This document shows, in pieces, positions 47,751 to 50,465 of a DNA stretch of 64,000 bases; the stretch's first letter is position 1; each line of letters begins with the position of its first letter. The notes below the pieces were generated by a model. That model ran no database searches, had not been told where the DNA came from, and was given only the letters and a program-made list of their open reading frames with translations. A program made the position numbers and the translations under genes. Origin of the DNA: Altererythrobacter sp. XM-24bin4 (lineage in GTDB: Bacteria > Pseudomonadota > Alphaproteobacteria > Sphingomonadales > Sphingomonadaceae); NCBI GenBank assembly GCA_003149575.1, contig QCWG01000001.1, forward strand, positions 1,083,183 to 1,147,182, in the 5' to 3' direction.

Positions 47751-49211
<1,461 letters not shown>

Positions 49212-49235
49212 CTATGTCCTGCCTTGGTCAAATAC

Positions 49236-49580
49236 TTACGCGCCGGTGGCGCAAACTGTTTCAGTGTCGGTCAACACCCACTCGCCATCGCCTGCGGTTA
49301 AGGTTGCCTTATTGCGGAGGTATTCGTCTTCACCCAAACCGTACTCGCAAATCACGTCGTCACTGCCCATGCCTGCACGACGGCAGGCAGCGGTGTTAAC
49401 CGGCTTTGCGTTCGGGCATGACGCCGCGAAAACGGTTGAGAAAATTTCCTGATTTGGAGCTGGAAGTGCGGGTTCAACCGGCGCTTCGACAACTGCTTCT
49501 GCTTCTGGCGCAGGTGCGGGTTCTTCACCGCAAGCCGCGAGAGCGAACACGGGGAGAAGCGGGAGGATGATCTTCTTCAC
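49236..49580 (-). CDS. Cysteine-containing lipoprotein inside the atp operon
   Basis: A 114-residue protein from a GTG at 49580 with an AGGAC ribosome binding site. It has a lipobox (FALAAC, Cys17), a Glu/Pro/Ala linker (residues 18-42), then a compact domain with cysteines at 55, 66, 78 and 110, likely two disulfides, containing ASCPNAKPVNTAACRRAGMG and DDVICEYGLGEDEYLRNKATL. It is expected in the periplasm, so it is not an F1 part. It lies between atpG (15 bases) and atpD (27 bases) on the same strand, so it is transcribed with F1. No function is known to me. It could be a chance insertion, or a redox/assembly partner of the membrane. Confidence 0.8.
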   Translation of the reverse strand: MKKIILPLLPVFALAACGEEPAPAPEAEAVVEAPVEPALPAPNQEIFSTVFAASCPNAKPVNTAACRRAGMGSDDVICEYGLGEDEYLRNKATLTAGDGEWVLTDTETVCATGA

Positions 49581-49595
49581 TGTTTCGTCCTGTTG

Positions 49596-50465
49596 TTAAA
49601 GCGCTTCCGCGCCAGCGATAATTTCGATCAGTTCAGTGGTAATCGCGGCCTGACGGCTGCGGTTGTACTGAATGGTCAGCTTGTTGATGAGGTCGCCTGC
49701 GTTACGCGTGGCGTTGTCCATCGCAGTCATCGAAGCGCCTTGCTCGGATGCTTCACGTTCCAGCAGTGCGCCGAAGATTTGCGTCTTCACGTATCGTGGC
49801 AGCAATTCCTCGAGGATTTCCTCTTCGCCTGGCTCATATTCAACAACTGCATCGCCGCCGCTTGCTTCCTCTGGAGAAGGAACCGGGATCAATTGTGCTG
49901 TCGTCGGAGTCTGAACCAGCGCAGACTGGAAGGTAGGGGCGACAAGATGGGCAACATCGAACGCGCCATCTTCGAACATCGCGATGAGTTCGTCTGCGAC
50001 CGCGTCTGCTTCTTCGAATCCTGGCGTCTTCACGTTCGAGGTGTCGAAATGCTTCGCGATCTTGTTCGCATAATCACGCTTGATCGGTGCGCGGCCTTTC
50101 TTGCCAACAAGATAGAACTGAACGTCCTTGCCTTCAGCAATCAGCTTCTTCGCCTGAAGCTTGGCTTCCTTGACGATGTTCGAGTTCAATCCGCCGCACA
50201 GGCCCTTGTCCGTGTTGACCACGACCAGCAGGTGTTTCTGGTTCGAACCAGTGCCAGCCAGCAGTTTCGGCGCGCTATCGCCGCTAACCTTGGTCGCGAG
50301 CGATGCCATCACCGCCGCCAGACGCTCTGCGTATGGGCGTGCAGCTTCGGCAGCTGACTGCGCACGGCGCAATTTCGCCGCTGCGACCATCTGTTTGGCC
50401 TTGGTGATCTTCTGAGTCGATTTTACCGACCCGATCCGATCCTTGAGTTCTTTAAGCGAGGCCAT
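49596..50465 (-). CDS. atpG: ATP synthase F1 gamma subunit
   Basis: The 289-residue rotor subunit begins [23 protein letters not shown] and ends with [27 protein letters not shown], the paired helices that form the central shaft. [12 protein letters not shown] is a further signature. An alphaproteobacterial-type insertion rich in Glu/Pro (about residues 195-220) is present. The downstream lipoprotein gene begins 15 bases later. Confidence 0.97.

Follow-up and report, generated by a model that had tools for sequence, protein, structure and literature searches.

The window (the whole 64,000-nucleotide stretch of Altererythrobacter sp. XM-24bin4 DNA analysed here) carries an F1 operon, which on the minus strand reads atpH-atpA-atpG-X-atpD-atpC, the atp genes being named in line with matches to relatives. 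Gene X (49236..49580, minus strand) was read as an ORF with a GTG start and a TAA stop, encoding a 114-aa lipoprotein precursor. Its neighbours, both matched across relatives, are atpG (F1 gamma; 49596..50465, minus strand) upstream and atpD (F1 beta; 47751..49208, minus strand) downstream. The atpG stop codon occupies 49596-49598 and the atpD ATG 49206-49208, which leaves gaps of 15 nt between atpG and X and 27 nt between X and atpD. A Shine-Dalgarno-like AGGAC (49587..49591, minus strand) was read in the sequence 6 nt 5′ of the GTG. These positions agree with the sequence-only reading, which had placed a same-strand ORF here with a GTG start and a ribosome binding site, and the translation bears out the 114-residue product with Cys55, Cys66, Cys78 and Cys110 that it had described. 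A scan of the minus strand from 49000 to 49800 revealed no promoter- or terminator-like site. X is present as a single copy in the window's genome. It is a true cistron and not a chance ORF, since relatives occur at the same junction and its dN/dS is well below 1.

Residues 1-17 (49530..49580, minus strand) form a signal peptide that ends, by pattern, in the lipobox LAAC (residues 14-17, Cys last), with Cys17 as the putative lipidation residue. We infer the lipoprotein signal from this motif and from its conservation. Based on a pattern looser than the classical one ([LVIMFTA][ASTVIGLC][GAS]C within the first 34 residues), the lipobox was present in 62 of 69 family members located at the junction. 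The other seven were L101 and six forms in the genera g53, g72, g21 and g63 (L164, L165, L166, L168, L169 and L170), the latter six carrying a Sec-type signal instead. In some genera the lipid anchor is therefore lacking. For the window's X, the LPAM_1 model (PF08139) gave 15.3 bits, below its cut-off of 20. The residue following Cys17 is Gly, and under the E. coli Lol rule Gly after the lipidated Cys leads to the outer membrane, where X would accordingly reside if the rule applies. The translation then runs through a Pro/Ala/Glu-rich linker (residues 18-38; 49467..49529, minus strand), which over the 62 members has a mean length of 25 residues and fractions of 0.21 P, 0.21 A and 0.18 E. The mature protein is acidic, with a computed pI of 4.05. 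In these respects X resembles other bacterial lipoproteins (signal peptidase II substrates), which likewise combine such a signal with a flexible linker after the Cys; it differs from them in the members lacking a lipobox and in a domain that fits no Pfam or NCBIfam family. None of the models in these two collections fitted the domain at cut-off, and the sub-threshold matches lay over the signal peptide only; LptM (NF047847), for example, reached 14.3 bits against a cut-off of 27.7 and covered residues 1-18 only.

The remaining part of the protein is a four-cysteine domain (residues 39-114; 49239..49466, minus strand) with the spacing C55-x10-C66-x11-C78-x31-C110. On the minus strand, the cysteine codons lie at 49416..49418 (Cys55), 49383..49385 (Cys66), 49347..49349 (Cys78) and 49251..49253 (Cys110). 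X was searched for a CxxC active-site motif, which is absent, so a thioredoxin-like redox role is unlikely. An AlphaFold2 model of residues 36-114, built from nine sequences (pLDDT 82.2, pTM 0.70), predicts a helix, four strands and a helix. It places Cys66 and Cys78 on adjacent strands, with Cys55 at one helix and Cys110 at the other. Three relatives found away from the operon (L175, L203 and L204) keep the middle two cysteines without the other two. Together with the predicted topology, these cysteine sets suggest the disulfide pairs 66-78 and 55-110. A Foldseek comparison of the model with the PDB returned nothing at E ≤ 0.001 (best E 0.39), and the X profile found no relative among PDB sequences (a single match, E 1.3). 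In a second structural comparison, the best match was to IseA (8i2e; Z 5.5 over 67 residues), and MTB12 (8z9b) and the N-terminal domain of PBP2a (3zg0) gave Z 5.3 over 70 residues and 4.7 over 64. These cystatin/NTF2-like folds score below the safe level for a shared fold, and naming the X fold after them was dropped, the matches being too weak.

With the single X sequence as query, 36 of 199 genomes in the GTDB family gave matches at E ≤ 1e-3, of which 26 were clear (E ≤ 2.1e-19) and 10 weak (E ≥ 1e-4), the latter covering mostly the signal and the linker. Twenty-four of the clear loci lay between atpG and atpD, and two (L024 and L025) lay elsewhere. Among named genomes, nine loci were found. 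Eight are junction loci from Altererythrobacter, Pelagerythrobacter and Qipengyuania; the ninth, a Flavobacterium match to residues 1-60 only, was set aside. With a 33-row profile, 83 matches at E ≤ 1e-3 were obtained in 397 family genomes. Fifty-one were clear (E ≤ 9.5e-33), the next match stood at 9.9e-6, and matches at E 1e-5 to 1e-3, mainly to the signal and linker, were excluded from the family. Two diverged members in longer gaps, L111 and L132, scored 29.4 and 21.4 bits versus a best of 7.4 among 1400 shuffles. L101 is a likely but weak member (9.7 bits versus a best of 8.0 in its own 1000 shuffles), and L104 is not safely placed in the family, two of its own 1000 shuffles scoring as high. 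The idea that L101 had lost Cys66 and Cys78 together was abandoned in view of its ambiguous alignment.

A wider profile, A4, which adds L111, L132 and L101, matched 60 of the 397 genomes at E ≤ 3.6e-10. Nine lower A4 matches (E 7e-13 to 3e-3; genera g21, g53, g63, g72, g94 and g95) were also taken up, and those in G023 and G276 (E 0.003 and 0.008) were left out. The search was blind to position, and six of the nine, the Sec-type forms listed above, nevertheless lay at the atpG-atpD junction. No atp gene adjoined L167, L174 or L175, and L174 (G156) was set aside as a chance match. L167, L175, L203 and L204 are off-operon relatives of the domain in other family genomes and hint at a wider unnamed exported family. 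At the order level, 32 of 196 genomes matched at E ≤ 0.05; apart from two weak matches (E 0.017 and 0.036), which were taken as chance, these belong to the same family. At the class level, the only match among 190 genomes was the window's own.

The start, Cys17, Cys55, Val61, Cys66, Cys78 and Cys110 were invariant in the 33-sequence alignment, and in 17 chosen rows reaching down to 18% identity the four cysteines alone were invariant. All four were found in 67 of the 69 junction members, the exceptions being the marginal L101 and L104. For 17 chosen pairs, dN/dS of X calculated by the Nei-Gojobori method (own script) was 0.05-0.40 with a median of 0.12, and for the first 170 codons of atpD it was 0.05-0.34, with zero in two near-identical pairs. 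Selection on X is uneven: two of the 17 pairs had a dN/dS of about 0.5 for the domain only, and one had 0.73 for the linker. At the nearest named locus, L031 from an Altererythrobacter MAG, AtpA, AtpG and AtpD are 97-99.8% identical to those of the window and X is 89% identical. Where X is present, then, its frame, lipobox and four cysteines are conserved with low nonsynonymous change, as anticipated for an operon component under purifying selection. Over 63 loci, X distances correlate with atpD distances (rho 0.46; none of 999 permutations reached this value), which speaks for largely vertical inheritance.

To describe the junction itself, we collected 161 loci with both atpG and atpD, 110 of which were distinct. 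The set was assembled with X as bait and supplemented with hand-chosen X-negative genomes, so its counts are not prevalences. L091 is outside the census, as the stretch taken contains no atpD. Among the distinct junctions, 39 had no X-like ORF, including two (L088 and L127) that hold another ORF, and 71 had a scored ORF: 67 firm members, the marginal L101 and L104, and two (L075 and L113) that are not of the family. The gaps of L087, L094 and L096 (55-58 nt) include what resembles a duplicate of the atpG 3′ end, possibly the scar of an insertion or deletion, and in those of L079 and L107 (113 and 117 nt) a short palindromic element around CCCAGCGAAAGCTGGG is present in inverted copies.

Taking the first in-frame ATG or GTG as the start of X, with ten hand choices, we found 20 of the 69 loci (marginal ones included) to have a start that overlaps the stop of atpG; the start follows that stop by 0-30 nt in 39 loci and by 31-100 nt in nine, and lies 226 nt after it in one. 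GTG serves as the start codon in 41 cases, ATG in 26 and TTG in two, and the median distance from the X stop to atpD is 22 nt. Because of the 20 overlaps, translational coupling of X to atpG is likely, and the suggestion that X is made at a rate tied to F1 gains ground, co-translation with atpG being probable. The same features could be taken to mean that the coding content is irrelevant and that the insert acts only as a spacer, or as a means of adjusting translation, between the gamma and beta genes. The enzyme requires three times as much F1 beta as gamma, and starts other than ATG in 43 of 69 loci, together with the overlaps, would suit such a device. However, a dN/dS of about 0.1 and invariant cysteines are not expected of a spacer, and junctions without X are often just about 20 nt long and contain no substitute; this explanation is extremely improbable.

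In the window's own genus, a profile search found X in four of 11 sampled genomes. Inspection of the seven negative junctions showed six gaps of 20-57 nt and, in L113, a different Cys-containing lipoprotein. A further set of 26 genomes was drawn from 25 genera, among those without an A4 match. In 25 of these the gap was empty and at most 111 nt long, and one (L188, G091; another genus) had an unrelated 205-aa lipoprotein, for which DUF6030 was sub-threshold (22.1 bits versus 26.7). Other occupants of the slot are a DUF4259 protein in L127 (E 3.6e-23), a lipoprotein without the X domain in L075 and a short membrane protein in L088. In L169, an OsmC-like gene (E 6.8e-21) lies between X and atpD, and L170 has a similar ORF, so that the slot can hold two passengers.

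These data bear on the possibility that X is a true ATP-synthase accessory that works on the periplasmic side of Fo or during assembly. Its position among the F1 genes, closely spaced from them or overlapping, speaks for such a role. An F1Fo accessory should nevertheless be present wherever the F1 operon is, and X is missing from seven of the 11 genomes of its own genus; the 60 family genomes with an A4 match also contrast with the 368 of 397 in which atpG was detected. Moreover, two genomes (G045 and G026) have X only off the operon, the type of anchor varies, and an exported X would be across the membrane from F1. X is not a fixed part of the ATP synthase, and the accessory role is very unlikely. 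The functions that the sequence-only reading had offered (F1 docking, redox or proton-leak control) find no support, given the absence from junctions of the same genus, the off-operon copies, the lost anchor and a slot shared with unrelated genes.

Copies away from the operon were considered separately. G026 has a 21-nt junction gap and, elsewhere, a copy broken by an in-frame TAG. G045 also has a short junction gap (the atpG match ends at 2376 and atpD begins at 2403), and its X copy is on a 200,048-base contig that agrees, in length and in the position of the match, with a plasmid of Croceibacterium sp. TMG7-5b_MA50; a plasmid search for X returned one record. G226 likewise has an X copy away from the atp genes. 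The ORFs around L114, L115, L116, L203 and L204 were read, and no functional partner was found in these contexts. Some off-operon copies are in island-like places, and transfer therefore also plays a part: besides the G045 plasmid, an MmeI-type restriction gene is located beside the broken copy L115, and an HsdM gene near the domain relative L203.

Such sites are what would be expected if X were a mobile or selfish element that settles in a permissive slot and persists through repeated transfer more than through its use, and the occupation of the slot by different genes and the patchy presence of X point the same way. On an atpD tree of 108 junctions (108 rows, 525 columns), X presence needs 25 changes, of which at least five are forced by starred branches, the tree being poorly resolved with 43 of 105 inner branches open. 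Gain and loss of X are not separable on so weak a tree. Nevertheless, the presence of X is more clustered than under shuffled labels (mean 34 changes; one of 500 shuffles as low), X is under purifying selection, and its divergence tracks that of atpD, all of which makes a chiefly mobile insert very improbable.

A further alternative is a periplasmic factor handling metal, haem or disulfides for the electron-transport chain, the need for which rises with ATP synthase without any contact with F1. It would be consistent with the four fixed cysteines and with the retention of the same F1 junction in divergent genera. In 16 of the 69 X proteins (L007, L009, L010, L015, L020-L022, L053, L061, L064-L066, L070, L071, L073 and L117), the last cysteine is directly followed by an EH(G/N/D)xHH-type tail, which possibly binds metal, and a multicopper-oxidase gene is found about 3.7 kb from the broken L115 copy. 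On the other hand, 53 of the 69 proteins, including that of the window, have no such tail; the seven X-negative genomes of the same genus all possess the atpG-atpD junction; and no electron-transport gene was recognised by eye among the ORFs around three off-operon copies. We regard this factor as unlikely. A bolder form of the idea is that X is a dedicated periplasmic partner of oxidative phosphorylation, which would sense or buffer metal or oxidation in the envelope through its cysteines and, in some lineages, the histidine tail, its dose being hard-wired to F1 through coupling to atpG; lineages without X would protect the energised membrane in some other way. This proposal is speculative and seems very improbable to us.

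Based on the above results, X is probably an envelope passenger with a small disulfide-held domain that uses the expression of the F1 operon. We suggest the following course. X would be co-transcribed with atpA-atpG-atpD, and ribosomes arriving from atpG would translate it, so that its amount may follow growth. The product would be exported, its domain held by two disulfides and, in the window's lineage, tethered by the lipid and a flexible Pro/Ala/Glu-rich arm, and it would work in the periplasm and not on F1. The domain may bind some partner in the periplasm or inhibit it, and a cystatin- or NTF2-like arrangement is weakly suggested by the model; given the weak fold matches, a binding or inhibitor domain is a guess. 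The passenger reading draws on the position of X, the conservation of its frame, purifying selection, the overlaps with atpG, the invariant cysteines, the absence from relatives and the off-operon copies. Against it stand the uneven selection on X and, further, the retention of the junction in divergent genera and the correlation with atpD, the last two of which would also fit an operon-relevant gene. The earlier remark that X might be just a hitchhiker comes closest to this picture, except that the gene is selected and hence not inert.

Passenger genes in conserved operons are a known kind of arrangement. In the atp operon of Rhodopseudomonas blastica, Tybulewicz et al. 1984 reportedly noted an additional frame between gamma and beta, which is like X in being a gene of unknown function at the same F1 junction of an alphaproteobacterium. 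The likeness concerns the junction; the X profile matched only the window's genome among the 190 of the class. The literature searched gave no account of gene X, and within it the X family and the recurrent use of the gamma-beta slot appear to be undescribed.

Even in an operon that ranks among the most conserved in bacteria, the gamma-beta slot of this GTDB family has been filled time and again by small genes. Several encode exported proteins, apparently linked through translation to a motor of the cytosol. X represents a protein family without a name that lends itself clearly to experiment, and it is a warning that operon neighbours alone are a poor guide to function.
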